Shown here: positions 25,991-44,198 of the stretch, in pieces
How the letters are laid out: each line of letters begins with the position of its first letter
Numbering within the stretch: position 1 is the stretch's first letter
Assembly (NCBI GenBank): GCA_903944165.1
Contig: CAJAQT010000051.1
Span: forward strand, 1 to 53,278
DNA length: 53,278 nt
Reading direction: 5' to 3'
DNA from: an uncultured Methylococcaceae bacterium
Lineage (GTDB): Bacteria > Pseudomonadota > Gammaproteobacteria > Methylococcales > Methylomonadaceae
The notes under the pieces: generated by a model
What the model saw: the letters and a program-made list of their open reading frames with translations, nothing else
What the model was told of the DNA's origin: nothing
Databases searched by the model: none
Translations under genes and position numbers: made by a program

Positions 25991-27805
25991 TTATTTAATC
26001 CATGTTTTGATAACTTCAGCAACCAGTTGTGAATCATTATCAACTAATTTTTTTACATATTCTAAGCGACTTTCATACGTTTGTGGGGTATCCAATAACA
26101 ACATATCCACGGCTTGTTTATTTGCTTGTAACAACAAATCATCATCTGCAGGCGTGGCGATAGGCACACCATTTTCATCAAACTGCACTGGACGGCCTTG
26201 TGCATCAACGCTGCCCAACATCTGCGCTTGAATCTCTTTTTCTTTAGCGACTTCAGCTTCGTGTTCAGCAACAATTTCGGCTTTAATCTCCTCTTCACTA
26301 CGTCCGGCTAAACGACGCATTGCAGGCCGTAAAACGCCAAAGATTAAGAATAATACGGCCAAGGCTGCGGCTAATTTCTTCATTGCATCGATAAACCATA
26401 ATTGCTCCCACAGCGGTAGTTCAGGTAAGGCTTCCAGTGCATCAGGGGCTTTAAAGGCAACATTAGTCACCGTCACTTGATCTCCGCGTTCGTTATCAAA
26501 GCCCACTGCTTGTTTAACTAAGTTAGTGAAGCGATCAATTTCCTCTTGATTATAAGGATCTGATTTAGGCTTACCTTCAGCATCAAACGAGTGTTTATTA
26601 TCAACAACCACCGCAACAGACAAGCGCTTTAATAGCCCTGTAGCTGAACGAGTATGGGTGATGGTTTTATCAACCTCAAAGTTTTTCGTGGCATTTTTTG
26701 AGGACGAGGCAGGAGTTGTGTTGGTGTTGCTGGTGGTGGATTGATTTTGACCAGGCGTGGTAGGCTTTTGCTGTTGCGTAGTTTCTGGCGAACTGCCTGA
26801 AGCCGTAGGTTGATTTGATAAAGCACCAGGAATGCCCTGCGTACCGGGTAAAGAATTATTTTCTTCGGAAGATTGTTCACTGCGCAGCACGGTATTTTTG
26901 GGATCAAAATTTTCCTGCGTTTTATCCATTTCAGTAAAATCAACATCAGCGGAGATTTGAGTACGCATACCATCACCCACTAACGGCGCCATAATATTGG
27001 CTATGCGTTCCATTAAATGTTCTTCGAGGTCTTTTTTATAATCAAATTGTTTGGCGGTTAAATACCCTAAAGAGGATTCTTTACTATTCAGGAGTCGTCC
27101 CTTTTGATCGACCACCGTCACTTGCTCAGCTTCTAATTGCGGCACACTAGACGCAACAAGGTGAATGATAGATTCAATTTGTTCTTTGCTTAACGAGCGA
27201 CCTTGATAGAGATTAACCATTACCGAGGCACTGGGTTTTTTGCGTTCACGAATAAAGACTGATTGCACTGGCAGGGCTAATAATACCCGTGCTGATTTGA
27301 TATTTTGAATAGAAGAGAGAGTTTGGGCGATTTCACCCTCAAGTGCCCGCTGAAAACGCATCAGCTCAACATTCTTACTCGCGCCAATGCTTTGATCTTT
27401 ATCTAGTAATTCATAACCTAAGCTTTTACTGCGAGGCAAACCTTGGCCGGCAAGTTTAATTTTAAGCTCATTAACCTTGTCCATCGGCACTAAAATAGCT
27501 CCAGACCCCGGCTCTACCTTGTATTTAACCTCTAGGGTATCTAAATAAGTAATGATGTCAGAGGTATCTTGCGGGCCAATTTCGGCAAATAATCTGGCAT
27601 AAGAAGGCGTATCAGACCACAACACAACCGCCACACTTATGGCAATGCTTACCGCCAGAATAAGCATAATGCCCAACTGCTTAGCAATGGTCATTTGCGC
27701 CAACCCTTTCATGGCTGGATGAATAATTCGTTCGCTTGCTAACGCATCCTGAACGTTAGCTAACATCGAATTAGTTGCGGGCGGAGTACTTTCTTGTTCA
27801 CTCAT
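25991..27805 (-). CDS. fliF: Flagellar MS-ring protein FliF
   Basis: The 604-aa protein has TM1 at about residues 46-66 and conserved ring-building motifs (YARLFAEIGPQDTSDIITYL, then ALEGEIAQTLSSIQNIKSARV). A low-complexity Gln/Thr/Ser/Pro region lies at about residues 315-375. TM2 lies near residue 480, followed by the cytoplasmic FliG-binding tail. It forms the inner-membrane base of the flagellar motor around the export gate. It lies 37 bp downstream of fliE. Confidence 0.96.
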   Translation of the reverse strand: MSEQESTPPATNSMLANVQDALASERIIHPAMKGLAQMTIAKQLGIMLILAVSIAISVAVVLWSDTPSYARLFAEIGPQDTSDIITYLDTLEVKYKVEPGSGAILVPMDKVNELKIKLAGQGLPRSKSLGYELLDKDQSIGASKNVELMRFQRALEGEIAQTLSSIQNIKSARVLLALPVQSVFIRERKKPSASVMVNLYQGRSLSKEQIESIIHLVASSVPQLEAEQVTVVDQKGRLLNSKESSLGYLTAKQFDYKKDLEEHLMERIANIMAPLVGDGMRTQISADVDFTEMDKTQENFDPKNTVLRSEQSSEENNSLPGTQGIPGALSNQPTASGSSPETTQQQKPTTPGQNQSTTSNTNTTPASSSKNATKNFEVDKTITHTRSATGLLKRLSVAVVVDNKHSFDAEGKPKSDPYNQEEIDRFTNLVKQAVGFDNERGDQVTVTNVAFKAPDALEALPELPLWEQLWFIDAMKKLAAALAVLFLIFGVLRPAMRRLAGRSEEEIKAEIVAEHEAEVAKEKEIQAQMLGSVDAQGRPVQFDENGVPIATPADDDLLLQANKQAVDMLLLDTPQTYESRLEYVKKLVDNDSQLVAEVIKTWIK

Positions 27806-27842: not shown

Positions 27843-28163
27843 TTACATCGGCATATTCATGACATTTTGGTAAGCATCTATTAATTTATTTCTTACTTGT
27901 AAGGTTGCCTGAAAAGCAACGCCTGCTTTTTGTGTTGCCACCATCACGTCGGCAATACTGGTAGTGCTTTTGCCTGCTTCAAAAGATTCTGTCAAATTCT
28001 TGGCGTTTTGTTGAAGTGAATTAACTGAATCAACCGATTGTTTAAGCAAATCACTAAAATTAGTATCTGCTACTGGCGTTATTGGCTTAGCACTCGCACC
28101 ACTGGCGGCAAAAGACATTGACCGCATTTGGGCTAGCATCAGATTAACATTCATGTCACTCAT
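27843..28163 (-). CDS. fliE: Flagellar hook-basal body protein FliE
   Basis: The 106-aa protein ends with the conserved FliE region (DVMVATQKAGVAFQATLQVR, then LIDAYQNVMNMPM). It is an adaptor between the MS ring and the rod. It is the first gene of the fliEFGHIJ operon, with a sigma-54-type promoter 36 bp upstream. An AGAGAG ribosome site precedes the ATG. Confidence 0.95.
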   Translation of the reverse strand: MSDMNVNLMLAQMRSMSFAASGASAKPITPVADTNFSDLLKQSVDSVNSLQQNAKNLTESFEAGKSTTSIADVMVATQKAGVAFQATLQVRNKLIDAYQNVMNMPM

Positions 28164-28468: not shown

Positions 28469-31400
28469 TTACCCAAACATATACGCTACATCTAATAACA
28501 TGCCGATATCACCACTGGCGAGCAGTGCACAACCGGTAACGCCACGAATATCAGATAAAAATCCTTGCATAGGTCTAATTAATACTTGCTGTTGACCAAT
28601 TAACTCATCCACCGCCACGGCTATACGCTGCTCTTGTTTACACACCACAACAAATAAATGCATCTCGCTTGAGGACGACTCCTCTTCTGACCGCCCTACT
28701 GAGCGCGGTGAGTTTTTTAGTTGATTGCTTTCCGATAAAAACTGTATGGGTAAGACTTCATCGGCAGCTAAACGTAACATTGATTGCCCCCCATCAGCTG
28801 AAATATGAAAAACTCGCTGCGTTTCAGCGCGAACAATACGTTGAATAGCATTAATAGAAATAACATATTGCACATCCCCCACACGCACCACCATACCCTC
28901 AACAACCACCATTGCTAAGGGCATTGTTAAGTGGAAATGTGCACCACGAAACGGAGATACTGCGCCGATGTTTAAATCGCCGCCATTGCGACGAAGTTGC
29001 TTAGCCAGCTCAGAAAAATTCACGCCGTCGTCACCGATATTTTTGCTTACCGAACCAAAACCATCACTCAACATCAACGCGGGTTCAATTTTTTCAACAG
29101 ACCATCCTAAGTGTTGAATGCGTTGCGTTATTGATGAAATATCAATGCCTTCGCCATCATCTTCAAGATGTACGCTGATATGATCTTCATGCTTAGAGAG
29201 GGCTATCGTAATGTGTGCCTGCGGAGATTTGCCGTTTTGAATGCGTTGCTCTGGCGTTTCTATGCTCTGATTGATACAAAAATCAATTAGGCTACGCAGA
29301 GGGGATTTAAGTTTTTCAACCATGCTTAAATCCACATCAGTGCTATCCCCCTCCGTGACTAGCTTTACCTCACGACCCGCTTGTCTGGCGACAGCTTCAA
29401 GATACGGAAATAACGGAGTAAGTAACAAGGCTGCAGGACGAACGCGCTGCGTGATAGCGGCTTCTTGTAAGCGCGTTAAGATCGCGGCATTATGACTTTC
29501 TAGTTGCATCAATTTTTCTAATTGCTCTTGGCAATTTTCCAATGATTGCCTAATCGCTTGATAGGCTATAGATTTTTTCTGCTCCAGTGTGGCAACGCCA
29601 ACATCAAAGGTATGTAAAAAATCATCTGCAAATAAATTTGCTAAGGCATGCTGCATCATGGCCTGCCCCGTCACTAATTCACCAATCATTTCCAACATAT
29701 CTATCGACATGCCTTGCGGAGTCGCCACTAAAGCGCTTTGGTTTTTTTCTGTGATGAGCGCTTTATCTTCAGCTGAAGCGTTCACGCTAGTTTTATTATT
29801 GGCGTTAGCCTGCGTTACTTTATCGGCAAGCACGGCTTCTAATTTTAAATATTGCCCTGAAGGATCCAGTGCGCTTAATGAATCCACTAAACTTACTTGA
29901 TCGAAGTGTGCAGAAATTAAAAAATCAAATAAAGTGCGATCACCTTCAAAAACAGTAACATTGCTGATGGCTTGGATACCACTGGAGCTTAGCCAATTAA
30001 GAAAATGGGTGGCAAGCTCTTCGTCCTGATTAAGGTCGGCACGCAAAATATAAAAATAATGTTGATTGTTTCTTGCTTGCGCCACCATAGTGATACTTTC
30101 TGGCGTTAATACCTTATGAAAGGACGCCGGCAAGCCTAACGAGTGTTCAATTTGAGTGGATAATAAGGTGCCACTTGACACAAAAACTGCTTCTGACGCT
30201 TCTTGTAATAATTTTTCAATTTGTGCCATATCAGGTACTTCGCCTGATTTTGCTGCATCTAAAATAATTTCTACATCGTTAATATAAGACTTTGTCATGT
30301 GCAATAACATGCTGTCGGGTTCTACACCGTGTAGTTCGGCACGGGCATATAAATCTAACAAGGTCATACTTAACAGGGCGGCTGTTTCTTTTTCATAAAA
30401 CCAACAGGCATGATAAATTTTTATAAATAAATCTTTGATAAGCAGTATGTTTTTCTCAATATTCTCATGCTGCCGTAAGCCATCGACCATTAAGCGCATT
30501 GCTAACAAACTATCAAAAATATGCTCAGCACACCAATTACGTAAAATAGTCAGTGGGTCAATTGTTAAGCTGGTACGTTCACCTTCCATTACTTCGGCAA
30601 TGGTGACTAACTCTAGGTAAAGTTTAAATTCTAATTGCTCATACTGAATAGCTGGCGCCATTGACGCAGTCGTTGCCAAGCTAATGATTTCGTCGATAAC
30701 CTCTAAAAAACGTACAAATCCAAGGCTATCGCCTAAGACTTTCAGGTCATGAGCTGCTGTGGAAAGTTGCGCGCATAACTCAGGGGAATGCTCCTGTTTT
30801 AAACGGCCTAGCAGTTGCGATAAACGTCCCAAAGGCACGGTTAAATTATCCAGAAAATGATAAATAGGATCATTGTTTTCTTGCACGATGGAATCACTAA
30901 AGCACTCTAATTCGGCAAAAGGATCGTCTTTATTTTGATTTTCAACTAAGGCATAGAGTTCGGTAACCAAGGCGTGTGCTTGTCGTACCGACGGTGTTTG
31001 CAGAGTAAGATAGGCATTGACTAATTGTAGCCAGTCAAGCATACCAATTTGTTCAGCAGCATGATGCAAGCGATCAACCTCTTCTGCAAACAAAACGATG
31101 CTTTGCTCTGCATCATAGTCTACGAGGGTACGCTCCATTTCGGACAAAATATCATGCGCCATACTCATGAATATCTCAAGGTACACAGGGTCGGCGGCAA
31201 GTGATTGTTTATCGATAGGTTCAAACACGATTGATTCTAGCAACGTGGGGGGTTCTGGGTGAGAGGGCGCCGTTGTGGTATTGCGCGTATTGTCTTCTAC
31301 TATTTTCGCCTGTTGGCAGACTAACAGCGTGTGCTTGATTCGCTTGATAAGGTCTTCAGATAATTCAACAGATACATCATGATGAGAGGCGACGGTTGTT

Positions 31401-31714
31401 TCTAACATACTCCGCAAACTATCCGTGGTTTCTAATAATAATTGCAGCATATCGTGATCAAAAGGCACACCGTCATCGCGCACTAAACCAATTAAATCTT
31501 CGGCATGATGGGCAACAGATTCAACCACTGATAAGCCCAGCATTCTGGCATTACCTTTGTAGGTATGCATGGCACGGAAGAGTCGCGCCACCGTGTCAGT
31601 ATTGCCGGGCGTGTGCTGTAACGCCAAAAGACATTCTTCGACCTCATCTAATGATTGATTGCCTTCATCTGCATACATACTCCAGATTTCATTCATATCG
31701 AATTCTTCAGTCAT
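28469..31714 (-). CDS. cheA: Long CheA (CheA3-like) with Hpt and degenerate kinase core, 1081 aa
   Basis: An N-terminal Hpt domain has the phospho-accepting histidine H50 in FRAMHTYKGNARMLG. Two more Hpt-like segments contain H217/H218 (LHHAAEQIGM) and H322 (AAHDLKVLGDSLG). After a roughly 300-residue region without clear motifs come P3-like helices (about 650-800) and an ATPase-like P4. In P4 the N-box has lost its key residues (Asn replaced by F812, the DHG motif by NQS) and the G2 box is unrecognisable, although DDGEG (852-856) remains. A CheW-like P5 closes the protein. It probably cannot bind ATP normally and is a substrate for the short CheA. Last gene of the che cluster. Confidence 0.88.
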   Translation of the reverse strand: MTEEFDMNEIWSMYADEGNQSLDEVEECLLALQHTPGNTDTVARLFRAMHTYKGNARMLGLSVVESVAHHAEDLIGLVRDDGVPFDHDMLQLLLETTDSLRSMLETTVASHHDVSVELSEDLIKRIKHTLLVCQQAKIVEDNTRNTTTAPSHPEPPTLLESIVFEPIDKQSLAADPVYLEIFMSMAHDILSEMERTLVDYDAEQSIVLFAEEVDRLHHAAEQIGMLDWLQLVNAYLTLQTPSVRQAHALVTELYALVENQNKDDPFAELECFSDSIVQENNDPIYHFLDNLTVPLGRLSQLLGRLKQEHSPELCAQLSTAAHDLKVLGDSLGFVRFLEVIDEIISLATTASMAPAIQYEQLEFKLYLELVTIAEVMEGERTSLTIDPLTILRNWCAEHIFDSLLAMRLMVDGLRQHENIEKNILLIKDLFIKIYHACWFYEKETAALLSMTLLDLYARAELHGVEPDSMLLHMTKSYINDVEIILDAAKSGEVPDMAQIEKLLQEASEAVFVSSGTLLSTQIEHSLGLPASFHKVLTPESITMVAQARNNQHYFYILRADLNQDEELATHFLNWLSSSGIQAISNVTVFEGDRTLFDFLISAHFDQVSLVDSLSALDPSGQYLKLEAVLADKVTQANANNKTSVNASAEDKALITEKNQSALVATPQGMSIDMLEMIGELVTGQAMMQHALANLFADDFLHTFDVGVATLEQKKSIAYQAIRQSLENCQEQLEKLMQLESHNAAILTRLQEAAITQRVRPAALLLTPLFPYLEAVARQAGREVKLVTEGDSTDVDLSMVEKLKSPLRSLIDFCINQSIETPEQRIQNGKSPQAHITIALSKHEDHISVHLEDDGEGIDISSITQRIQHLGWSVEKIEPALMLSDGFGSVSKNIGDDGVNFSELAKQLRRNGGDLNIGAVSPFRGAHFHLTMPLAMVVVEGMVVRVGDVQYVISINAIQRIVRAETQRVFHISADGGQSMLRLAADEVLPIQFLSESNQLKNSPRSVGRSEEESSSSEMHLFVVVCKQEQRIAVAVDELIGQQQVLIRPMQGFLSDIRGVTGCALLASGDIGMLLDVAYMFG

Positions 31715-31875
31715 AGTCTTATCTTTAGTTGTGTAGTTGGAAGCAGGTTAGATTTGATGTTCATTACTGTTTTATTAAACTTATCGACAACCCAATTAAC
31801 CATGAGTCAGCACGAACGATGGCGTTACTTAACTTAATTGCAGTGACTTAAGAGAGGGCAGACACTAGACTTAAC

Positions 31876-31905
31876 CGTTCGCCCTGAGCCTCTTGAAGGG
31901 TGAGC
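31876..31905. repeat. REP-like element, TTCGCCCTGAGC family
   Basis: CGTTCGCCCTGAGCCTC followed by TTGAAGGGTGAGCG forms an imperfect palindrome of the CCCTGAGC...GAAGGG type. A relative lies at 34747. It is in the 270-bp spacer between cheY and the long cheA; no promoter is obvious there. Confidence 0.55.
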
Positions 31906-31988
31906 GATGAAGCCATCCCGTCTTAACTAGGTCGTCCCTTTGTTAGCGTGGGCGGTCAATAGTAAGCCTATAAAGTATAGGTATCTTA

Positions 31989-32396
31989 TTACGTTAATCC
32001 AACCAAGCGACGCATTACTTGAGTTAACTCTGTACCACGAGCATCGACTAAGTCTAAGGACACTGCACCTGAAGGCTTAGAAACAATCGCATCAGCACCC
32101 AAAGCACGTGCTTTTGCCGCGTGTGGTGACCCTGCTAACGCGACTGACGATAAAATAATTATCTTGGCTTTGCTTTTGAGCTTAGCAAAACGTAAAAATT
32201 CCAAGCCATCCATTTCTGGCATTTCAATATCCAAGAGAATTATGGCTAAATCTTTATGTTTATCTAATTCTTCTAAGGCTTTTTTGCCATTTTCAGCAAA
32301 GGCAACTGCCCTAAACTCGGGCATTTTTGCAACAAATGTGCGAATAACAGAACGCATCATTACTGAATCATCAACCACCATTACTTTATATTCCAT
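31989..32396 (-). CDS. cheY: CheY-type response regulator, 135 aa
   Basis: A stand-alone receiver domain has acidic pocket D9/D10, phosphorylation site D56 (ILLDIEMPEMDG), S83/S84 and K107. The segment after beta-4 (SSVALAGSPHAAKARALG) and the KPSG tail resemble the receiver part of CheB more than E. coli CheY. By position, between the soluble MCP and the long CheA, it corresponds to CheY6 of R. sphaeroides. It probably signals to the flagellar switch. AGGT precedes the chosen ATG; a GTG one codon earlier is possible. Confidence 0.92.
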   Translation of the reverse strand: MEYKVMVVDDSVMMRSVIRTFVAKMPEFRAVAFAENGKKALEELDKHKDLAIILLDIEMPEMDGLEFLRFAKLKSKAKIIILSSVALAGSPHAAKARALGADAIVSKPSGAVSLDLVDARGTELTQVMRRLVGLT

Positions 32397-32493
32397 CACT
32401 TACCTTATAGTTTAGTTGTTGGGCGTGATTTACCGCCCTTTTATTTAATTGATAGGCTACCCACTTAACACTGAGCAGCGTGAAGTTAAGCCT

Positions 32494-32566
32494 CGTGCAT
32501 AGGTCACAATAGCCTGAACGTATTGCGACGCGTTGTAGTTCACCATTTGGTGCGCCCCCTATAACA
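32494..32566. repeat. REP-like element, GTGCATAGGTC family
   Basis: It begins GTGCATAGGTCACAATAGC (relative of 4822) and continues with an arm CGCAATA pairing to TATTGTG. It then reads GTTGTAGTTCACCATTTGG. The pairing CACAATA/TATTGCG gives the stem. Confidence 0.55.
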
Positions 32567-32651
32567 CTGGTTTTACCAACAGAAAAACCCAATTTTTCGA
32601 CCTCAACAACAGGAAACAGGGTAGCTTGGGGGCATAATGAAAATTGCTGTT

Positions 32652-32676
32652 GGTGGATACACGATGTTTATCCACC
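32652..32676. repeat. GGTGGATA/TATCCACC hairpin
   Basis: Perfect 8-bp arms with a 9-base loop, followed by CTACC. This is a widespread type of dispersed bacterial hairpin. It is related to the AGGGTGGA segment at 121-128. Confidence 0.6.
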
Positions 32677-32722
32677 CTACCTTGATGACATTGACTACCT
32701 TAACTTTTTATTACACGTTACC

Positions 32723-34651
32723 TTAAAACTCACCAAAGCCTCGCTCATCAGCATCTAACGGTAAGATGGCTTTAGGCGCGGTTTTTTTTATCGTGCTAGG
32801 CGCTAAGGACACTGCGTGTGTTTTAGCTGTGGTTAATCCAAGCAACTGAGGGTTAGCTAATAACGCTTTGATTTGCATTAATAACTCTGGAGTTAAGCCT
32901 TCTAAACCCATGTTTGCTAAGTCATTGGCTTGTTTTGGGCGTTCCCGTAGTTTGAAATTACGTATTTCACTGCGCATGATATTAGCGACTCGATTTAATT
33001 CATTTGAAGCTGTCGCTAATTCTTCTGCTTGCTGACTGCTTTCTTGGGCTGCTTTGGCTACTTGATTCATCGCGACATTAATTTGTGACACACCCGTTGA
33101 TTGCTCAACACTTGCTGTCGCAATCTCTGCTACTAAATCTTTGACTTTAATCACATTACCCACAATTTGATCCAGGGCAACACGCGTTTCGTTGGCTATT
33201 TCTACGCCTTCAATAACCCGTTTAGATGAGTTTTCAATCAATTCAGCAGTTTCACGCGCTGCTTTTGCACTTCGCCCTGCTAAGTTTCTTACTTCCTGAG
33301 CAACGACTGCAAAGCCTCGACCATGTTGTCCTGCTCGCGCGGCTTCAACCGCAGCATTTAATGCCAGCAAGTTGGTTTGGAAGGCAATTTCATCAATCAC
33401 TTTAATAATTTTGGCGATATTTTGTGAGGACTCATTAATCGCGCCCATCGCCTCAATCATGCCGCCCATTTTAATTTGACCTTGATTTGCGGCTTGCGAA
33501 GTATCAATCACCAATTGATTGGCGGCATTTGCGTTGTCAGTATTGGCTTTTACTTGGCTATCGGTTTCTTCTAAACTTGAGGTGACCTCTTCAACAGATG
33601 AAGATTGTTCTTCTGCGGTAGACGCCATATTTTGAGAGGCGGCATTAAGATGATCGGCAGAATCTCCCACCTGTTCAACGGTGCCAACAATTTGATGCAT
33701 TGCAGTGTTGATACTGATCAAGGCATTTTCAAAGGTGTCTTTAATGCGTAAAAACTCACCTTGATAATCGCCTTCCATAGTGAGGCTTAGATCGTTTTCA
33801 CCTAGTGCCTCAATGATGTGCATAATGTCATAAATAGGACTAATAACAGAATCCAAGGCACCATTCATTGCTGACACAATTTTAGCAAATTCTCCTTGGT
33901 GCTGACTCACATCAACACGAATGCTAAGGTCACCCTGTTGCGTTGCTAAGGCTACAGCATCAATATCACCAATCATTCGGCGAATATTCTCCCGCATTAC
34001 ACGCGTACTTTCATGTAAATTTGCTGCGGCACCTTTGCAAAATTCTTTTGTAATTAATACCTTATCTAATTTCCCATGTGCTACTTCAGCTAATACCTCA
34101 GAAATATGCTCCATAACGGACACGTCCGCCCACTCCACCATCGTGCCGGTGCGCTTAGCTTGGGTATCAAATAATGGCGTTGCGGTTAATTCAAAGACCC
34201 ATTCACCTAATTTAATGCGTGTTTTAAATGGCTGAGTTAAGTGCGCAATCATGTCACGTTGATGAGCAGGATTCTTATGAAACACATCCATGCTGCTACC
34301 AATTAACTTATTTTTATCAAAATGTGGTAGATATTTACGAATACCTTCTTCCGCATTAGCAAACATTTCCATCACACTTGGATTCATGTAAGTAATAATA
34401 TTATTTTCATCCGCTATTTGAATGCACGTACTAACGTGCTCAAGTAAATGGGTATCTAGTGTGTGTTGCGACTCTGCCATGATGATTTCCTGTTCGTGTT
34501 GAATTATGGGTTGCGTTAGCGGTGTTTTTTTTACGACCGTTGTTTTTATTGGCGCGGGTGGTTTGTCTGTATGTTCTTGCTGTCGTGTATCTATCCAATC
34601 TAAAGGATCGTTCATTACTCGCCCTGTCTCACGTTTTTTTCTTTCTGCCAT
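32723..34651 (-). CDS. Soluble PAS-containing chemoreceptor (TlpT-like), 642 aa
   Basis: No hydrophobic segment long enough for a membrane helix is present, so this receptor is cytoplasmic. A basic N-terminus (MAERKKRETGR) precedes a disordered linker and a PAS domain (about 68-180). HAMP-like segments and a complete signalling hairpin with DEIAFQTNLLALNAAVEAAR follow. It sits downstream of a ParA-type gene, as tlpT does in R. sphaeroides. There the basic N-terminus stimulates the ParA ATPase to place the cluster. GGAG six bases upstream fixes the ATG at 34651; the frame also opens with a TTG at 34663. Confidence 0.92.
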   Translation of the reverse strand: MAERKKRETGRVMNDPLDWIDTRQQEHTDKPPAPIKTTVVKKTPLTQPIIQHEQEIIMAESQHTLDTHLLEHVSTCIQIADENNIITYMNPSVMEMFANAEEGIRKYLPHFDKNKLIGSSMDVFHKNPAHQRDMIAHLTQPFKTRIKLGEWVFELTATPLFDTQAKRTGTMVEWADVSVMEHISEVLAEVAHGKLDKVLITKEFCKGAAANLHESTRVMRENIRRMIGDIDAVALATQQGDLSIRVDVSQHQGEFAKIVSAMNGALDSVISPIYDIMHIIEALGENDLSLTMEGDYQGEFLRIKDTFENALISINTAMHQIVGTVEQVGDSADHLNAASQNMASTAEEQSSSVEEVTSSLEETDSQVKANTDNANAANQLVIDTSQAANQGQIKMGGMIEAMGAINESSQNIAKIIKVIDEIAFQTNLLALNAAVEAARAGQHGRGFAVVAQEVRNLAGRSAKAARETAELIENSSKRVIEGVEIANETRVALDQIVGNVIKVKDLVAEIATASVEQSTGVSQINVAMNQVAKAAQESSQQAEELATASNELNRVANIMRSEIRNFKLRERPKQANDLANMGLEGLTPELLMQIKALLANPQLLGLTTAKTHAVSLAPSTIKKTAPKAILPLDADERGFGEF

Positions 34652-34746
34652 CTGGTTCTCCAAATTAACATTGTCAGTCCGTTAGGGTGCAATCGCAATA
34701 ACTCTCGCACCTTATACCCTTTACTGCCCATCGTTAAGTAACACAA

Positions 34747-34790
34747 CCGTTCGTCCTGAACTACGTTGAAGCCTGTCGTGAGCTCTTCGA
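34747..34790. repeat. REP-like element, CCGTTCGTCCTGA family
   Basis: CCGTTCGTCCTGAACTACG, then AGCCTGTCGTGAGCTCTTCG, is a degenerate relative of the element at 31876. It lies between the coiled-coil nuclease-like gene and the MCP. Confidence 0.5.
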
Positions 34791-34817
34791 GTGCGCGGTA
34801 TGAGCCATTTGCTCAGC

Positions 34818-35498
34818 TTACAATACCAACAAATTTTCACCATGCTTAGTTTGCACAACGTTGCCACTACGTTGTAACACAAAAAAACCACGCGCTAAGG
34901 CATTTTCTTTGGCTTCATCGTAGAAATGAAATGAAGCAAGGGCTCCATACAGGCGGCAATGGTTATACACAGGAAATAACTTTTTAAAGTTTTTCATTTT
35001 GCGCTCTAATTTGTCCACATCCTTTTCATGTGCTTTGTATTTAACCTCAATAATGCCAATCGCTGTCCCGTTTGTCATCACAATATCGTATTCTTCTTGC
35101 ACATTGCCACGATGTTTACACTGACTTTTAGTAATATCATCAAAATAAATTTCACCTAAATGCGGATCATCAATCAAGCTATTAAAGAAAAATTCCTCGG
35201 CAATATCACCTTGATTTTTCTTCATGCTCCCAAAATCAACACCCACTCGTTTTAAAGTGTCATTGGTTTCTTGCTGTGATGCTTGCAACGCTGCAATCTG
35301 GCGACTGTTTTCTTGTTGTTCTTTTGCAATGTCTTGGTGTGATGCTCGCAACGTTGCAATCTGACGACTGTTTTCTTGTTGTTCTTTTGCAATGTCTTGG
35401 TGTGATGCTCGCAACGCTGCAATCTGACGACTGTTTTCTTGTTGTTCTTGTACAGTTTCTCTCAAAATTGCCCAAATCTCATCGGCCATTGCACTCAT
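34818..35498 (-). CDS. Coiled-coil plus PD-(D/E)XK nuclease-like protein, 226 aa
   Basis: Residues 18-80 hold three near-identical 21-residue (three-heptad) coiled-coil repeats of the type EQQENSRQIAALRASHQDIA. A C-terminal domain has EEYDIVMTNG and IGIIEVKYKA, giving D138 and E151-x-K153. These are the D...ExK pattern of PD-(D/E)XK nucleases and resemble DUF3782-like proteins. No nuclease activity can be assumed. It is inserted between parA and the soluble MCP gene, where R. sphaeroides has nothing. GGGAG upstream supports the start. Its role could be unrelated to chemotaxis. Confidence 0.75.
   Translation of the reverse strand: MSAMADEIWAILRETVQEQQENSRQIAALRASHQDIAKEQQENSRQIATLRASHQDIAKEQQENSRQIAALQASQQETNDTLKRVGVDFGSMKKNQGDIAEEFFFNSLIDDPHLGEIYFDDITKSQCKHRGNVQEEYDIVMTNGTAIGIIEVKYKAHEKDVDKLERKMKNFKKLFPVYNHCRLYGALASFHFYDEAKENALARGFFVLQRSGNVVQTKHGENLLVL
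35275..35463. repeat. Three tandem 63-bp repeats inside the coiled-coil gene
   Basis: Units 35275-35337, 35338-35400 and 35401-35463 are nearly identical (a few substitutions; the third diverges at its end). Each encodes 21 residues, i.e. three heptads. High identity at the DNA level points to recent duplication and possible copy-number variation. Confidence 0.9.
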
Positions 35499-35557
35499 TT
35501 TATCTCCCGCAAAATATAGTAGGTTGGTACCTGTCTTGAACTTTATCGAATGCAGCA

Positions 35558-35591
35558 GTTAGCGCATTCATCGCGTGATGGATGCGCTAAC
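35558..35591. repeat. Strong hairpin, REP-like
   Basis: A 15-bp stem with one G-U pair (GTTAGCGCATTCATC at 35558-35572 with GATGGATGCGCTAAC at 35577-35591) has a 4-base loop. It is flanked by AGGTTGG (35521) and CCAACCT (35603), so the whole 35517-35612 segment looks like one palindromic mobile-type repeat. It lies upstream of the coiled-coil gene. Confidence 0.65.
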
Positions 35592-35637
35592 CGCTTATCA
35601 ATCCAACCTTAAGGTTGAGCACATTAAACTCTATGTC

Positions 35638-35658
35638 AACTGTCATTGTCATAATGAG
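35638..35658. repeat. 21-bp repeat, copy 2
   Basis: Identical to 28437-28457 over 21 bases, including the dyad TCATT-N5-AATGA. It is between parA and the coiled-coil gene. Confidence 0.6.
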
Positions 35659-35707
35659 AATTGCTGTGCCTCAGCACCCCTCTGCTGCATTCATACTGTC
35701 GTATCGA

Positions 35708-36418
35708 CTATTGCACCAGATGAGCTTTAGCTGCTAACACCCACATAACTAATGCCTGATAGTCGTCAGCGCCTGCACTATTAGGTGCATAATCAAAAAT
35801 GGCTTGTCCGTAACTGGGGGCTTCCGCTAAACGTATATTGTTACGAATTACGCCGTTAAATACCTGTTCTCCAAAACGCTCAGTTAGCCGCGCACGCACT
35901 TCACGATGCACCACTAAACGATCATCATAGCGACACAATAACAAGCGTAAACGCTGCCATGAGATAGCCTCAGCTTCCATCCGTTGCAGTAAACGACTGA
36001 TCCCCTGCATACTTAAAAATTCTGGCTCCATGGGTGTTAATACCCAATCACATTGCGCCATCATGGTAGCAACTTCTGTGTTCCATATTGGTGGCGCATC
36101 AACTATGACCCAGTCGGTTAAGGCTGCTAAAGTCGCACGATGTGGGCGTGTGGAATGTGGATTCCAATCGCCAGGTATTAATTGGACATTTTCTGCGACA
36201 ACTTCAGGCTGTGGTGTGCGCTCTGCTGCCAACCAATCGCTTACATTCCATGATAAATTTTCTGCGCGTAAGCCTAAGGCTGCGGTTAAATGCGTTTGTG
36301 GATCAAGATCGATTAAGGTAACAGACTGCTGTGCAAAACGCGCAATGCCTAATCCCAAATTTACCGCTGTGGTGGTTTTACCTACTCCTCCTTTTTGGTT
36401 GAAAATAAGAATTTTCAC
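35708..36418 (-). CDS. parA: ParA/MinD-family ATPase (PpfA-like), 236 aa
   Basis: A deviant Walker A motif with signature lysine (KGGVGKTT, residues 9-16) is followed by LIDLDPQTHLT and DWVIVDAPP, typical of small ParA ATPases. There is no N-terminal DNA-binding domain. In R. sphaeroides the homologue at this position (PpfA) uses nonspecific nucleoid binding to segregate the cytoplasmic chemoreceptor cluster. The start is GTG, with GAGGG nine bases upstream, 15 bp after cheW. No parB gene is nearby, in keeping with a receptor acting as the ParB-like partner. Confidence 0.9.
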   Translation of the reverse strand: MKILIFNQKGGVGKTTTAVNLGLGIARFAQQSVTLIDLDPQTHLTAALGLRAENLSWNVSDWLAAERTPQPEVVAENVQLIPGDWNPHSTRPHRATLAALTDWVIVDAPPIWNTEVATMMAQCDWVLTPMEPEFLSMQGISRLLQRMEAEAISWQRLRLLLCRYDDRLVVHREVRARLTERFGEQVFNGVIRNNIRLAEAPSYGQAIFDYAPNSAGADDYQALVMWVLAAKAHLVQ

Positions 36419-36433
36419 TTAACACTGCCCTCG

Positions 36434-36994
36434 TTAAACCGCTTCTAGCACAGCGTGTAAGGCTTGATTGATTTCTATCCGCTGATTTGAAACCAAGCGT
36501 TCTATATCTAAAATAATCGCGACCTTTTTGCCTTGTTTACCAAAACCTTTGATTACGCCATGCTGACTTGTTTCGCCCATTCTCGTGGGTAAATCAATAT
36601 GGCTTTCTGGAATTTCCAACACTTCACTGACATGATCGACAACCAGTCCAATCATAACCGTATCGATATCCAACACAATAATCACTGTGCGCTCAGTGTA
36701 AGGCTTGCTTGGCATATTAAAGCGTAAGCGAACATCCATGACCGGGATGACTTTACCTCGCAAATTAATCACCCCTTTAATAAAACTTGGCACATCCGGC
36801 ACGCCCATAATGCGTTGCAACCCTACCACTTCAGTGACATAACTAATGCCGATGCCATATTCTTCTTCAGCAACACCAAAGGTTAAATACATATCTTCAA
36901 TGTTATCTTCATCATTAAAAACTAACGTTGTATTTTCGTACTCGGCGTTATCGTACTGTGCTTCATGGCCTAATTGTTCTGTTACCTCTGACAT
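36434..36994 (-). CDS. cheW: Chemotaxis adaptor CheW, 186 aa
   Basis: A single CheW/SH3-like domain is visible (YLTFGVAEEEYGIGISYVTE, GVINLRGKVIPVMDVRLRF and MIGLVVDHVSEVLEI). It has an N-terminal acidic extension of about 30 residues. It links receptors to CheA, here probably the soluble MCP to the split kinase. GAGGTAA precedes the ATG. A 512-bp gap with a pseudogene separates it from cheB, so it may begin a separate transcript with parA. Confidence 0.95.
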   Translation of the reverse strand: MSEVTEQLGHEAQYDNAEYENTTLVFNDEDNIEDMYLTFGVAEEEYGIGISYVTEVVGLQRIMGVPDVPSFIKGVINLRGKVIPVMDVRLRFNMPSKPYTERTVIIVLDIDTVMIGLVVDHVSEVLEIPESHIDLPTRMGETSQHGVIKGFGKQGKKVAIILDIERLVSNQRIEINQALHAVLEAV

Positions 36995-37083
36995 GATTTA
37001 CCTCGTAGTGTCATCATAAATATTAAGTGAATAGGATTATAGGATCACTGCCCACAGTTAAGCAAAATGTAGCGTAGGAATGG

Positions 37084-37147
37084 GCATGAAATAAGGTAAG
37101 CACGTTGCCAAGAGTCGGGGTACACAGTTGTTCACTTTATTTCATGC
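37084..37147. repeat. 11-bp inverted repeat GCATGAAATAA
   Basis: Perfect 11-bp arms separated by 42 bases, upstream of cheW. The right arm abuts a second 9-bp inverted repeat (37146-37154 with 37183-37191). Confidence 0.55.
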
Positions 37148-37196
37148 TCGCTTCTAACAATAGAGAGTAAAACTGGCGTTTGGAAGCGAGCAAAGG

Positions 37197-37424
37197 TTAA
37201 AAAATAGCTGTCACCATCAGCGATACTACACTAGCCAGTAGTACACCTAACATCCATTTAAGCAGCATTAAATCGGCACAAAGAGGTGCTAATTTACTAT
37301 CAAAGTAATCCCGCGTTACTCATTCACTCTGTGCTTTAACAATAACTTCTGCTTGTTTTTGCTCAATACCAAACTGTGTTAGTGCTGTCGTTAGCGCTAA
37401 GGTATCAAAAGTAATGGTGCTCAT
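37197..37424 (-). pseudogene. DUF1640/CCDC90-like coiled-coil protein, interrupted by a TGA
   Basis: Reading from the ATG at 37424 gives MSTITFDTLALTTALTQFGI and then QAEVIVKAQSE. An in-frame TGA (37320-37322) follows. The same frame continues with VTRDYFDSKLAPL, LMLLKWMLGVLLASVVSL and a stop at 37197-37199. This is the normal order of short bacterial DUF1640 proteins: helical N-terminus, coiled coil, C-terminal membrane anchor. A coiled-coil segment appears shortened. Because both halves are in frame and well preserved, the inactivation looks recent. Confidence 0.75.
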
Positions 37425-37506
37425 AGTTAGCTGTGTAGGTTAAATTTTTTAAATCATATTTAGGATGCAATAGCACAAGAGACTGTAAATATAGTCTGTT
37501 GTGCTT

Positions 37507-38562
37507 TTATTTTCGCTTAAACGCTGTCATTAATAAGGCTGGAATTTGCTCCAAAGGCACCATGTGCTTGGCTCCGCCTAATTGATGAGCAACTTGGGGC
37601 ATACCAAATACCACGCAACTTGCTTGGTCTTGCACTACAGTAAACCCACCTGCTTGACGAATCTCTAATAAGCCTTGCGCACCATCCTTACCCATTCCTG
37701 TTAATACTGCTGCGGCAGCATTAACGCCTACTATGTTAGCTACTGATTTAAATAACACATCAACCGAGGGACGACTGTAATTGACGGGCTCACCCTCGAT
37801 TAACGCTATTTTGTATTGACCGCCTGAACGCTCAATAATGGTATGTCGATGCCCACCTGGTGCTAAAAAGATATGTCCCGGTAAAATTCGATCACCATGC
37901 TCTGCTTCTTTTACCTGCATTTTACATAAGGTATTTAAACGTTCTGAAAAGCTGGTCGTAAAGCCTTTTGGCATGTGCTGAACAATGACCATGCCTGGAG
38001 CATTGGCTGGAAAGGCGGGCAAAATTCTCACCAAGGCTTCAACCCCTCCCGTAGATGACCCTAATGCGATAACTTTATCGGTTGTTTCACCTAAATTAGT
38101 GACGGTATCAATATCTTTTCGAACCGTACTGTTTTTAAAATGTTCAACATTGGCTGACGCCGCTATTTTAATACGTTGGTTAATCATATCTCGCATTTTT
38201 GGTAAATCATCCATAATGCCCATAACGGGCTTAGCCATGACATCAACAGCACCTGATTCTAGTGCTTCTAAGCTTATCATTGCGCCTTTTTGTGTTAACG
38301 AACTAATAATAATAGTTGGGATTGGCATGATTGGCATGAAACGTTTTAAAAAAGTCACCCCATCCATGCGTGGCATTTCGACATCAAGCGTGATCACATC
38401 TGGTTTTAATTCCACCATCATATCTCGGGCCATATACGGATTTGACGCTTCGCCAACGACCTGTAAGTCAGGATCGGTACGCATACCCTCGGCTAAAATG
38501 CGTCTAACCAATGCCGAATCATCGACAATTAAGACCCGAATTGGTGTTTTTATTTTGCTCAT
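37507..38562 (-). CDS. cheB: Chemotaxis protein-glutamate methylesterase CheB
   Basis: The 351-aa protein has a receiver domain with D60 (ITLDVEMPRMDG) and a methylesterase domain. Its catalytic triad is S170 (GSSTGG), H196 (VQHMPKGF) and D293 (GMGKDGAQG). It demethylates receptors on phosphorylation. The ATG overlaps the cheR stop (ATGA), so cheA-cheR-cheB are translationally coupled. It corresponds to cheB2 in the cheOp3 order. Confidence 0.97.
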   Translation of the reverse strand: MSKIKTPIRVLIVDDSALVRRILAEGMRTDPDLQVVGEASNPYMARDMMVELKPDVITLDVEMPRMDGVTFLKRFMPIMPIPTIIISSLTQKGAMISLEALESGAVDVMAKPVMGIMDDLPKMRDMINQRIKIAASANVEHFKNSTVRKDIDTVTNLGETTDKVIALGSSTGGVEALVRILPAFPANAPGMVIVQHMPKGFTTSFSERLNTLCKMQVKEAEHGDRILPGHIFLAPGGHRHTIIERSGGQYKIALIEGEPVNYSRPSVDVLFKSVANIVGVNAAAAVLTGMGKDGAQGLLEIRQAGGFTVVQDQASCVVFGMPQVAHQLGGAKHMVPLEQIPALLMTAFKRK

Positions 38563-39389
38563 AATGGCTTCCTATATACCCCCACTTCAACTGGTTGCCA
38601 ACGCGTCTGCAAACCTCGTAACGACATCGTAACACTGGTAATTAACCAACCGCCCGGTTCAGTGACGTTATAAATAGCTTCAATAACTTCAGTTTGCTGT
38701 GCGCGATCGAAGTAATATAAAACATTTCGACAAAATACAACATGAAAAGGACGTTTAAAGGGATACGGTGTGTTTTTTAAATTAAGTCTACGAAAGGTAC
38801 ACATTTGCTGAAACTGTTGCTTGACTCGATATTGATTCATGCCCACAGGATCAAAACCATAGTCTAGGTATTCAGGCGGTGTTTTATCAACATGCAAGCC
38901 GCCATAGATTCCTTTTTCTGCGTGAGCAATCACTAACTCACTGATATCCGTGCCTAAAATTGCCAGCTGTTTTTTAGCCCAGTCTAGCCCCCTCGTTTGG
39001 GCAGCAATCATGGCAATCGAATAAGCTTCATCGCCTGTTGAGGCGGCGGCACTCCAAATGCGTACATTTGTGATAGGTAATTCTGGCAGAATACTTGCCT
39101 GAAAATAATTTAAAACAGATAGTTCACGAAAAAAATAAGTGTGATTGGTAGAGGCTGCATGAATAACAGCAGTTTCTAAGTCAGCGTTTTGACCTTTCTC
39201 TAAGGCAGTTGCTAAGGCGTTTAAATCAGGAAGTAAGTACGTTTCACGAACTTTATCCATACGCAGCATTAAACTTTCTTTTTTATTATCAAGAAAAATC
39301 ATTCCGCTTCGATTGCGTAGCCACGTATTAATTCTTTGGTATTCTGCTTCATTAAAATCCAAAGTAGCCGGTGTTTGAACCCCTCCCAT
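38559..39389 (-). CDS. cheR: Chemotaxis protein methyltransferase CheR
   Basis: The 276-aa protein has the N-terminal helical CheR domain and the SAM-binding domain with WSAAASTGDEAYSIAM, VVFCRNVLYYFD and GGWLITSVT. It methylates chemoreceptor glutamates. Its start overlaps the cheA stop by one base (TAATG) and its stop overlaps cheB. The soluble MCP has no obvious pentapeptide tether, so CheR would act by direct binding. Confidence 0.96.
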   Translation of the reverse strand: MGGVQTPATLDFNEAEYQRINTWLRNRSGMIFLDNKKESLMLRMDKVRETYLLPDLNALATALEKGQNADLETAVIHAASTNHTYFFRELSVLNYFQASILPELPITNVRIWSAAASTGDEAYSIAMIAAQTRGLDWAKKQLAILGTDISELVIAHAEKGIYGGLHVDKTPPEYLDYGFDPVGMNQYRVKQQFQQMCTFRRLNLKNTPYPFKRPFHVVFCRNVLYYFDRAQQTEVIEAIYNVTEPGGWLITSVTMSLRGLQTRWQPVEVGVYRKPL

Positions 39390-40615
39390 TAGTGAACTCC
39401 TCGCGCCAATTCTTCACAATCCAATACGATAGCAATTTCTCCATTACCCAATAAAGCACAGCCATGACTTGCTCTGATTGCCTCTAATTGCCCTTGTAAT
39501 GGCTTCATTACTACTTGTTGCTGATCAAAAATTTCATCAACAGGCATACCGATTAAGCCCAACGTGGTTTTAAATACAACGACAATTTGCGTTTCCAAAG
39601 CAGGTAACTGTGTGCTGTCTTCATTATAAAATCGTGCTAATCGGCAAACAGGAATTAAGCTGTTTCTAACACGAATCAACTCAGCACCATTAGCCGCTGA
39701 GACATGGGCAAGCTGCTCTGTTTCAGGTCTAAAGACTTCGTTAACTACATCAATGGGCGTTGCAAATAACCGTTGTCCGATGCGCATCACTAAGCTATCT
39801 AAAAAAGCAAGCGACAAGGGAATCGATAATACTACTTGGGTTCCGGCTCCAGTTTGACTGTTTACTTGAATATGTCCACGCAAACTTTTCATGGTGGCAT
39901 TTAAGACATCCATGCCCACACCTCGACCAGATAAATTGGTGACCACCTCGGCAGTTGAAAAGCCTGGCTGAAAAATAACTTGCCATAATCGCCAATCTTC
40001 AGGCTCTTCAGTTACGCCCATCAGCCCGCGTTCACGTGCGCGGCTTAAAATTTTATCGCGTTGCAAGCCACGCCCATCATCTGCCACCGTAATTCTAATA
40101 TCGCCCCCTTGCTGCTCAGCACTTAGCGTGATGGTGCCCGTTGCAGACTTGCCTGCCAAGATCCGTTCTTCAGGTGATTCCAAACCATGATCGGCACAGT
40201 TTCTAAGCACATGCACTAAGGGTTCGTACAGTCGGTCAGCGACTAATTTATCAATTTCAGTGTCTTCGCCGATTAATTTAAGAACTATTATTTTGCCTGT
40301 TTGACGCTCTAGCTCGCGTACCATTCTGCGCATACGGCGAAATACTTCACCCACCGAAACTTGCCTAAGTTCGGCAGCGGCATCTTGCATTTCGGTTAAT
40401 AACATTTGCAAACGATGCGCTGAATTAGCAAATTCTGCCAATTCTAAACCACGCAAATCAGGGCTATTAATAACTTCTGAAATGCCTAAACTTAATTCAC
40501 CAACCAAATCCATTAAGCGATCAACTTTAGCAATTTGAATACGTAAAAATGCTGATTGTGTCGATAACTCAGGGGGCGCACTGTTATCCATCGTGTCTGG
40601 AGCTGATGATTTCAT
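39389..40615 (-). CDS. cheA: Short CheA (CheA4-like) kinase lacking the Hpt domain, 408 aa
   Basis: The protein starts almost directly with the P3 dimerisation helices (residues 20-85). P4 retains all ATP-binding boxes: N-box with H135, R138, N139 and DHG 142-144, G1 DDGRG 179-183 and G2 GRGVGMD 230-236. A CheW-like P5 follows (about 262-405). P1 (Hpt) and P2 are absent, so it cannot autophosphorylate on its own histidine. The natural substrate is the Hpt of the long CheA encoded at the other end of the cluster. It is the first gene of the cluster. No good ribosome site is seen before either candidate ATG. Confidence 0.93.
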   Translation of the reverse strand: MKSSAPDTMDNSAPPELSTQSAFLRIQIAKVDRLMDLVGELSLGISEVINSPDLRGLELAEFANSAHRLQMLLTEMQDAAAELRQVSVGEVFRRMRRMVRELERQTGKIIVLKLIGEDTEIDKLVADRLYEPLVHVLRNCADHGLESPEERILAGKSATGTITLSAEQQGGDIRITVADDGRGLQRDKILSRARERGLMGVTEEPEDWRLWQVIFQPGFSTAEVVTNLSGRGVGMDVLNATMKSLRGHIQVNSQTGAGTQVVLSIPLSLAFLDSLVMRIGQRLFATPIDVVNEVFRPETEQLAHVSAANGAELIRVRNSLIPVCRLARFYNEDSTQLPALETQIVVVFKTTLGLIGMPVDEIFDQQQVVMKPLQGQLEAIRASHGCALLGNGEIAIVLDCEELARGVH

Positions 40616-42554: not shown

Positions 42555-42872
42555 TTAGGCGGAAATTTTATGCTCATGGGTAAAGCAATTTTTTGGACAC
42601 ACTTTCGAACAGGCGGTACAGCCAATACAATCTAGGGCATTGCTAATGCTCATGACCATGCTGTTATCGTCCTCGTCTTCAAAGTCACCGTAATCATCGT
42701 CAAATTCTTCAGCGTCTAGCGCATCGGACTTTTCAATTAAATCAAAGACGTCACGAGGACAGACTTTAAAGCAACGACCACAACCAATGCAGATTTTCTG
42801 ATTAATTTCGGTAACATAAGCAGGTGTCCACGTACTGCCGCCAAAGGTAACGCTGGTGACAAATTCAGTCAT
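42555..42872 (-). CDS. fdxB: Nif-specific ferredoxin III (FdxB), 105 aa
   Basis: Two [4Fe-4S]-type cysteine clusters (CIGCGRCFKVCPRDVF and CIGCTACSKVCPKNC) are separated by a very acidic insert (EEFDDDYGDFEDEDD), as is usual in FdxB. It is a low-potential electron carrier tied to nitrogen fixation. GAGGTGG upstream of the ATG at 42872 fixes the start; the longer frame to 42938 is rejected. It lies 14 bp after the DUF683 gene. Confidence 0.93.
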   Translation of the reverse strand: MTEFVTSVTFGGSTWTPAYVTEINQKICIGCGRCFKVCPRDVFDLIEKSDALDAEEFDDDYGDFEDEDDNSMVMSISNALDCIGCTACSKVCPKNCFTHEHKISA

Positions 42873-42886
42873 ACGCCACCTCGCGT

Positions 42887-43099
42887 TTAAGCTAATTGAG
42901 CTTGCGCGGCAAGCAACTTCTGATGGGCATCGTCCCAATTTTTACAGGCAACATACGTCGCTTGCGCAATGCCTAATAACTCGTGATAGCCTGCCGGTAA
43001 GTTGTCTTCTATCAAATCATGTAACGCCATTGCGTGTTCATTTGCTAAGCGTTTAAGCCTCTTAACTTCTTTCTCCAAGTATTGAACATCTTCAGTCAT
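42887..43099 (-). CDS. DUF683/CCE_0567-type nif protein, 70 aa
   Basis: This small helical protein (TEDVQYLEKEVKRLKRLANE, then LHDLIEDNLPAGYHEL) matches the DUF683 family that accompanies nifX and DUF269. A cyanobacterial member, CCE_0567, binds metals. A GAGGAAG ribosome site selects the ATG at 43099. It lies 10 bp after the DUF269 gene. Confidence 0.92.
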   Translation of the reverse strand: MTEDVQYLEKEVKRLKRLANEHAMALHDLIEDNLPAGYHELLGIAQATYVACKNWDDAHQKLLAAQAQLA

Positions 43100-43109
43100 T
43101 TTTACTTCC

Positions 43110-43583: not shown

Positions 43584-43710
43584 AGGTTTTCTCCTGAAAA
43601 GTAAGATGGGTTAGCAAAGCGTCCCCAACAGTTGATTTGTAAATTAAGGGTCATCATTTAACCCCCTTGGTTTAAAAGAGGTCGACTAACACTAAAAGCC
43701 ATCATGCCAA

Positions 43711-44196: not shown

Positions 44197-44198
44197 GA

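Follow-up and report, generated by a model that had tools for sequence, protein, structure and literature searches.

A predicted split chemotaxis kinase of the CheA3/CheA4 type in an uncultured Methylococcaceae bacterium

Can two CheA proteins, neither of which holds all parts of the canonical kinase, amount to one chemotaxis kinase? The question is raised by a che operon in a 53,278-nucleotide stretch of DNA from an uncultured Methylococcaceae bacterium (Methylococcales; Methylomonadaceae), a methanotroph, positions 1–53,278 of the forward strand of contig CAJAQT010000051.1 in assembly GCA_903944165.1, referred to below as the window. The operon, located on the minus strand, encodes a short CheA of 408 amino acids (39389..40615) and a long CheA of 1081 amino acids (28469..31714). 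A first-pass annotation, made from the sequence alone, had proposed that the two form one kinase acting in trans. The analysis described here favors a single chemotaxis kinase that is divided between two proteins encoded in one operon and is orthologous to the CheA4/CheA3 pair of Rhodobacter sphaeroides, a reading to which we assign a probability of roughly 0.88.

The short CheA comprises P3, P4 and P5 domains. The Pfam scan identified H-kinase_dim, HATPase_c (1.3e-16) and CheW and found no Hpt. The ATP site is intact, with RNCADHG at residues 138–144 (including the N-box asparagine, N139), DDGRG at 179–183, GFST at 218–221 and GRGVGMD at 230–236, and all four boxes are present in each of the 12 short CheAs aligned. 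The long CheA matches Hpt at residues 22–101 (9.5e-11) and CheW at 939–1079 (4e-13), whereas HATPase_c (22.8 bits against a Pfam cut-off of 26.4) and H-kinase_dim (14.9 against 23) both fall under their thresholds. Its P1/Hpt domain (residues 1–136), with the phosphorylatable histidine H50 in HTYKGN, is followed by three Hpt-like bundles (~ 176–260, 283–374 and 387–489), a P2-like domain (518–640), P3 (~ 668–760), a pseudo-P4 domain (~ 765–933) and P5 (934–1081), which positions P1 and P5 ~ 800 residues apart. The bundles and the P2-like domain had been overlooked in the first-pass annotation. In the pseudo-P4 domain the N-box asparagine is replaced by F812, DHG by NQS (815–817) and GFST by GFGS, and the G2 box is absent; the G1 box is retained as DDGEG (852–856). 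All 21 long-CheA orthologues aligned lack DHG, GFST and an intact G2 box, and the N-box asparagine is missing in 20 of them, the exception (G092) having an asparagine at that column but a deleted DHG. Because the same losses recur across the 21 aligned orthologues, they are judged not to be due to chance. The DDGxG motif of the G1 box is present in 12 of 13 long CheAs outside Rhodobacteraceae and in 0 of 8 within. The Pfam scan, motif positions and alignment thus confirm what had first been noted, namely a short CheA with complete ATP boxes and no Hpt, and a long CheA that keeps H50 but has lost the N-box asparagine, DHG and the G2 box. Neither protein carries a P1 together with an active P4 on one polypeptide, as the canonical single-chain CheA does.

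In R. sphaeroides, neither CheA3 nor CheA4 is reported to autophosphorylate, and CheA4 phosphorylates CheA3 on H51 (PMC2817712). Phosphorylated CheA3 is described as feeding CheY6 and CheB2, and the middle part of CheA3 as dephosphorylating CheY6-P (PMC2817712, PMC2924250). The P1 domain of the window's long CheA matches that of R. sphaeroides CheA3 (PDB 3kyi) with an E-value of 5.4e-35, and the next isolated CheA P1 (8c5v_C) follows at 1.1e-10. Since 132 of 134 residues of the CheA3 P1 of genome G116 (locus L076) are identical to 3kyi, that genome is taken to belong to R. sphaeroides itself or to a very close relative, and its CheA3 is used in place of the R. sphaeroides protein. The window's long CheA aligns with the G116 CheA3 from end to end with 35% identity, and a profile of three window-type long CheAs picks up the middle region of the G116 protein at 2.6e-118.

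The operon has the same composition. In the window the short CheA gene is followed by cheR (38559..39389, 276 amino acids), cheB (37507..38562, 351 amino acids, receiver and methylesterase), cheW (36434..36994, 186 amino acids), a gene for a ParA/PpfA-like ATPase (35708..36418, 236 amino acids), a gene for a TlpT-like soluble chemoreceptor with MCPsignal and HAMP matches (32723..34663), a CheY6-like cheY (31989..32399) and the long CheA gene, all on the minus strand. No transmembrane stretch was found in the chemoreceptor (maximum KD19 of 1.14 compared with 2.96 in Escherichia coli Tar). The order cheA4-cheR-cheB-cheW-(parA)-mcp-cheY-cheA3 occurs in 16 of the 17 loci with both CheA genes on one contig. 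One permuted operon, that of locus L135 (genome G491), reads cheW-parA-mcp-cheY-cheA3-cheA4-cheR-cheB, so that cheA3 and cheA4 are adjacent. A tblastn search found no ParA in 7 of the 19 loci showing cheW and mcp, a set that includes the window's locus; in these seven (L051, L097, L099, L100, L102, L134 and L140) the cluster is otherwise conserved, which raises the question how the cytoplasmic cluster is partitioned there. The specificity residue of CheY6 is Met13 (PMC2817712). The corresponding methionine finger lies in VDDSVMM of the window's CheY, is present in all 22 operon CheYs aligned and is absent from E. coli CheY. The pocket residues I11, L14, Y15, N56, V59 and L60 of the CheA3 P1 correspond to I10, M13, Y14, N55, M58 and L59 in the window (numbering mapped in this analysis). 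Based on the end-to-end homology, the same operon and the same CheY specificity residue, the window pair is assigned as orthologous to the CheA4/CheA3 split kinase of R. sphaeroides. The first-pass proposal therefore holds in that each CheA is incomplete and the two are complementary, and trans-phosphorylation is its best reading by way of the orthology.

The window thus resembles R. sphaeroides cheOp3 in end-to-end homology, operon content and order, a P1 with the CheY6 pocket, a methionine-finger CheY, a soluble receptor and ParA. It differs in its host, which belongs to a different class and order, in a pseudo-P4 domain that has the N-box helix, the G1 box and the lid length, absent in eight Rhodobacteraceae copies, and in fli genes that come after cheA3, whereas in cheOp3 fliE lies beyond cheA4. 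The bipartite CheA with a stand-alone Hpt gene described by Berry, Andrianova and Zhulin (2023) likewise places kinase and Hpt on separate polypeptides; however, the Hpt partner in the window is a 1081-residue protein with a dead P4 and its own P5. The domain types of E. coli CheA (P1, P2-like, P3, P4 and P5) are all recognizable across the window pair, but they are split over two genes and accompanied by additional Hpt-like bundles.

Older descriptions of R. sphaeroides CheA3 give a P1 and a P5 separated by 794 residues (PMC2817712, PMC2829493). Berry and colleagues applied HHpred and AlphaFold2 to this protein and assigned to its middle two more Hpt domains, P2, H_kinase_dim and a HATPase_c minus a helix (PMC10542144, PMC10782961). 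The P3/P4 remnants, by which the window had initially been set apart from CheA3, are therefore not peculiar to it; what stands of that contrast is that the window's P4 is less eroded, with the N-box helix and the lid undeleted. A P3-P5 profile matches the window in one piece with 185 bits, and the eight Rhodobacteraceae sequences, in which both the N-box helix and the lid are missing, with 12–25 bits over P3/P4 and a separate P5 piece. The AlphaFold2 model of the full-length long CheA (6-row alignment) has a mean predicted local distance difference test score (pLDDT) of 52.7 and a predicted template modeling score (pTM) of 0.30; residues 650–925 form blocks at pLDDT 25–66, and its P3-P4-P5 part is unusable. 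The sole structure model used was that of residues 165–640 (pLDDT 74.5, pTM 0.47), which contains the three bundles listed above, each of four helices, and a domain of β-α-β-β-α-β topology at ~ 538–629. Foldseek returned one match with an E-value below 0.001, to 6ff6 (the repeat protein BRIC1, 4.1e-4), and a match to a CheA P1 (1i5n_C) with a probability of 1.00, a target TM-score of 0.75 and an E-value of 0.13. The bundles may tentatively be regarded as Hpt-like; compared with the two additional Hpt domains that Berry et al. describe in R. sphaeroides CheA3, the window model suggests three.

The origin of this architecture is illuminated by a complete multi-Hpt CheA of 985 amino acids (P0003; L057:3126-6080) on another contig of the same genome, C165. 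It has all ATP boxes, and its Hpt, H-kinase_dim, HATPase_c and CheW matches all exceed the Pfam cut-offs. In a profile comparison with 21 long CheAs it aligns collinearly across 906 columns (hhalign, E-value 1.5e-66), and it differs from the long CheA in the intact ATP boxes, a shorter helical middle and its location in a separate cluster with its own receiver and CheW. Elsewhere on C165 there is a 473-residue protein with three CheW matches. In a comparison with 106 other CheAs (17 of which are short and 81 show a P1 match, with some truncated at locus ends), the P2-like domain of the long CheA matches only the three C165-type proteins (3.1e-16 to 4.5e-21; next 0.42), the best matches of the Hpt2-like bundle are also of the C165 type (1.2e-6 to 3.5e-4; next 0.019), and for P1 the three C165-type CheAs are the top three matches by a narrow margin. 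The Hpt3 bundle does not single out this type. Because the P2-like domain, the Hpt2-like bundle and P1 match the C165 type best, this type and the long CheA's N-terminal half seem to have a common origin, and the phosphatase region considered "unique" is, by this comparison, identified as a reshaped part of a multi-domain CheA. For P3-P5, the best tree joins CheA3 to CheA4 with a Shimodaira-Hasegawa-like approximate likelihood ratio test (SH-aLRT) support of 92 and a long-branch warning, and a grouping of CheA3 with C165 is not rejected by the approximately unbiased test (probability, p-AU, 0.186). The scenario of Berry et al., in which CheA4 arose from a duplication of the CheA3 core, is possible. 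C165-type CheAs occur in 3 of 181 Methylococcales sampled; none beyond the window's own was found among 185 Gammaproteobacteria genomes at a cut-off of 1e-80 with at most four candidates scored per genome, such that misses are possible.

Polar positions of the middle region that are present in all 21 long CheAs include D454, R458, D467, D560, T587 and D597, and N585 (20 of 21) and Q222 (19 of 21) are nearly constant. In two or more of the three complete CheAs of the C165 type, a different residue stands at the positions of D560, D597 (glutamate in these) and Q222. As residues conserved in long CheAs and differing in that type, these three are the first candidates for CheY6-P dephosphorylation, although a catalytic role for them is a guess.

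The genome searches were samples with cut-offs of 1e-45, or 1e-40 for Rhodobacteraceae, so that remote forms may be missed, and some genomes are drafts. A long CheA was detected in 14 of 301 Methylococcales genomes and in 3 of 20 within the window's genus. The window was the only carrier among 369 genomes of its class and was joined by G1134 alone among 398 genomes of the phylum; G1134 was taken as an alphaproteobacterium because its other CheA groups with Rhodobacteraceae CheAs. With a three-sequence profile, 9 of 295 Rhodobacteraceae genomes showed a long-CheA homologue and 2 showed generic CheA matches. Carriers among named contigs are Methylococcaceae and Methylococcales metagenome-assembled genomes (MAGs), Candidatus Methylobacter oryzae, Methylovulum and Methylomonas. 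The long CheA of Candidatus Methylobacter oryzae KRF1 (L050:5015-8258) is found in two overlapping frames of 481 and 671 amino acids, owing to an assembly error or a real break. This frame-broken sequence (L050/G399) and those of G576, G418 and G351, which run into contig ends, were left out before counting; G527, also frame-broken, was kept in the 21-row alignments and left out of the trees. L104 and L145 are copies of L048 and L049, L098 overlaps with L229 and L101 with L234, and each was counted once. In G339 (L229), a member of Rhodobacteraceae with a fast-evolving long-CheA operon, the single other CheA matched is 805 amino acids long.

Is the dead P4 domain simply on its way out? The first-pass annotation took the long CheA for a possible evolutionary intermediate, which would make its P3/P4 a neutral relic being lost. 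The Pfam HATPase_c scores point in that direction, as they fall from 39.4 bits in a Methylovulum MAG to 22.8 in the window, 13.9 in a Methylomonas MAG and no match in G116; with G1134 (35.3) and G501 (25.4), two of the five homologues scanned exceed the Pfam cut-off and a third exceeds the window. These scores, however, form no single time series. The lid is missing in Methylomonas, AMbin126 and A1bin241 and partly in G1134, and in a tree of long CheAs with the C165 type at its root the lid-less Methylomonas trio is sister to the lid-bearing window pair (SH-aLRT 98 for the two together) and apart from Rhodobacteraceae, which are also lid-less; P4 was therefore shortened more than once. The ratio of nonsynonymous to synonymous substitution rates (dN/dS, Nei-Gojobori method) between the window and its 90% relative, one sequence pair, is 0.087 over the 169 codons of P4, lower than for P1 of the same gene (0.161), and amounts to 0.094 for P3, 0.122 for P5, 0.138 for the whole long CheA, 0.285 for the Hpt3 bundle and 0.311 for the linker before P3. 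The value for the dead P4 is somewhat higher than that for the active P4 of the short CheA (0.052), as a relic would predict. In a second pair (Methylomonas and AMbin126) the P4 value is 0.068, with dS saturated. The dead P4 is a maintained domain under purifying selection and is not drifting. With repeated lid loss, homologues that have a fuller P4 and this constraint, the idea of an intermediate is not supported, and a neutral relic is improbable.

The same constraint, together with the DDGEG box and the unshortened P4, would also suit a long CheA that still binds ATP as a weak or conditional kinase, its N-box change being compensated. We give this very little credence, since the window has lost the N-box asparagine, DHG, GFST and G2, the latter three losses extend to all 21 orthologues, and R. 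sphaeroides CheA3 is reported not to autophosphorylate (PMC2817712). A different possibility is that there is no dedicated pair: the long CheA would serve as a phosphate sink or as a phosphatase of CheY-P and receive its phosphate from other CheAs, and the short CheA would phosphorylate other P1 domains. Several observations favor it or weigh against a split kinase. At least two complete CheAs are encoded elsewhere in the window's genome, on C125 and C165, and could phosphorylate H50; the first-pass annotation had held that a third complete CheA pairing with the two would refute the split kinase, an objection borne out in part by these complete CheAs, either of which may or may not pair with the two. 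No short CheA was found in 3 of the 25 genomes with a long CheA (G480, G351 and G339). The operon contigs of G480 and G351 stop before the expected position of cheA4, but the long CheA of G339 lies inside a 3.4-Mb contig with no cheA4, cheR or cheB found beside it and no cheA4 found elsewhere in the genome, and a long CheA can therefore persist without its partner. CheY-P phosphatase activity has, to our knowledge, no sequence signature, so that its presence in the window is by inference only. Finally, the window's CheB has a leucine at the methionine-finger position, as do those of 8 other Methylococcales aligned, and may receive no phosphate from the long CheA. R. sphaeroides CheB2 is reported to carry the methionine finger (PMC2817712); the trait is not constant within the family, as the five readable Rhodobacteraceae CheBs have methionine in three cases and leucine in two. 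Nonetheless, both CheAs were detected in 22 of the 25 genomes (14 of 15 Methylococcales, G1134 and 7 of 9 Rhodobacteraceae), the two genes belong to a single conserved operon wherever the contigs reveal their setting, and the R. sphaeroides pair is reported to work in trans (PMC2817712), which leaves the absence of a dedicated pair unlikely.

The split kinase probably operates as follows, building on what was observed here (domain content, the state of the motifs, orthology, the operon, the specificity residues and the constraint on P4), and on analogy with R. sphaeroides for trans-phosphorylation, phosphatase activity and cellular location. The short CheA would be held at a cytoplasmic receptor cluster through its P5 and CheW, bind ATP and act in trans on its partner, phosphorylating H50 of the long CheA. 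That protein would in turn hand the phosphoryl group to the operon CheY, recognized by its methionine finger, and would dephosphorylate CheY-P by means of the stretch that separates P1 from P5. As for descent, a multi-Hpt CheA that also had a P2-like domain, built like the C165 protein, would have given rise to the N-terminal half of the long CheA; the P4 of the long CheA would have lost catalysis and been retained as a pseudokinase domain. More tentatively, and with more doubt than confidence, the long CheA may have been rebuilt as a regulated phosphatase-phosphodonor in which a conserved pseudokinase P4, paired with CheA4 via P3, controls both activities; the site of CheY-P dephosphorylation would then be in the Hpt-like bundles or P2-like domain shared with the complete C165-type CheA, and the module would have spread between Gammaproteobacteria and Rhodobacteraceae together with a flagellum.

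The neighboring genes bear on the last point. Directly downstream of the split operon, fliE (27843..28163, minus strand) opens a fliE-F-G-H-I-J series that includes fliF (25991..27805, minus strand). In the other Methylococcales stretches compared, including that of the 90% relative, neither fliE nor fliF was found next to cheA3. G116, G323 and G162 have fliE on the far side of cheA4, oriented in the opposite direction. A FliF close to that of the window (above 170 bits, a cut-off chosen after the scores were seen) occurs in 8 of 9 Rhodobacteraceae with a long CheA compared with 2 of 61 without (Fisher p 4e-8), and in 7 of these 8 carriers it lies within 10 kb of cheA3. In a tree that contained no FliF from other alphaproteobacterial orders, the carrier FliFs cluster with those of Methylococcales and E. 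coli, apart from 12 native FliFs (support 100), and their branching mirrors that of the long CheAs; a group of carriers and Methylococcales without E. coli has a p-AU of 0.063. These comparisons indicate that in Rhodobacteraceae the split-CheA module and a second flagellum travel together. The Fla1 flagellum of R. sphaeroides has been attributed to a gammaproteobacterial origin (PMC7277832), and for acquired clusters recruitment from other alphaproteobacterial orders has been described (PMC12363192); that paper counts 23 Rhodobacterales clusters of the fla3 type, which may correspond to Fla1. A nesting of Rhodobacteraceae within Methylococcales, seen in a 126-row tree (SH-aLRT 84 and 93), did not recur in the C165-rooted full-length CheA3 tree or in the CheA4 tree. 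Methylococcales CheA3 forms one clade with an SH-aLRT of 79, and a single clade of CheA4 has a p-AU of 0.215. The trees do not resolve donor and direction of transfer, and we claim neither. Two further features of the window flank or interrupt the operon. A 226-residue open reading frame (34818..35498, minus strand) with coiled-coil repeats and a PD-(D/E)XK match under the Pfam cut-off lies between parA and the receptor gene; it was seen elsewhere only in PowLak16 among the loci compared and is no core part of the che operon. Upstream of the operon, positions 42555-45656 hold a ferredoxin gene and a nitrogenase component 1-type gene.

No published report of CheA3/CheA4 in Methylococcales was found in a search outside which most subscription journals lay, and the print searched gives only Rhodobacteraceae; nor was a paper found on CheA without P1 and trans-phosphorylation. 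A CheA3-like protein with such a long linker is described as found only in Roseovarius and such variants as rare, in a study of 206 species according to its abstract (PMC2829493), and the split kinase has been placed in Rhodobacteraceae, emerging early in the family (PMC10782961). CheA3/CheA4 is a textbook case resting on one organism. The pair in Methylococcales, an order distant from R. sphaeroides, is new relative to the print searched and bears on the origin of the split kinase: together with the second FliF in Rhodobacteraceae it suggests that the module was transferred along with a flagellum, as opposed to an early origin within that family. The fuller pseudo-P4 domain and the collinear complete CheA make the role of a kinase-dead P4, and the residues that dephosphorylate CheY6-P, open to experimental test.

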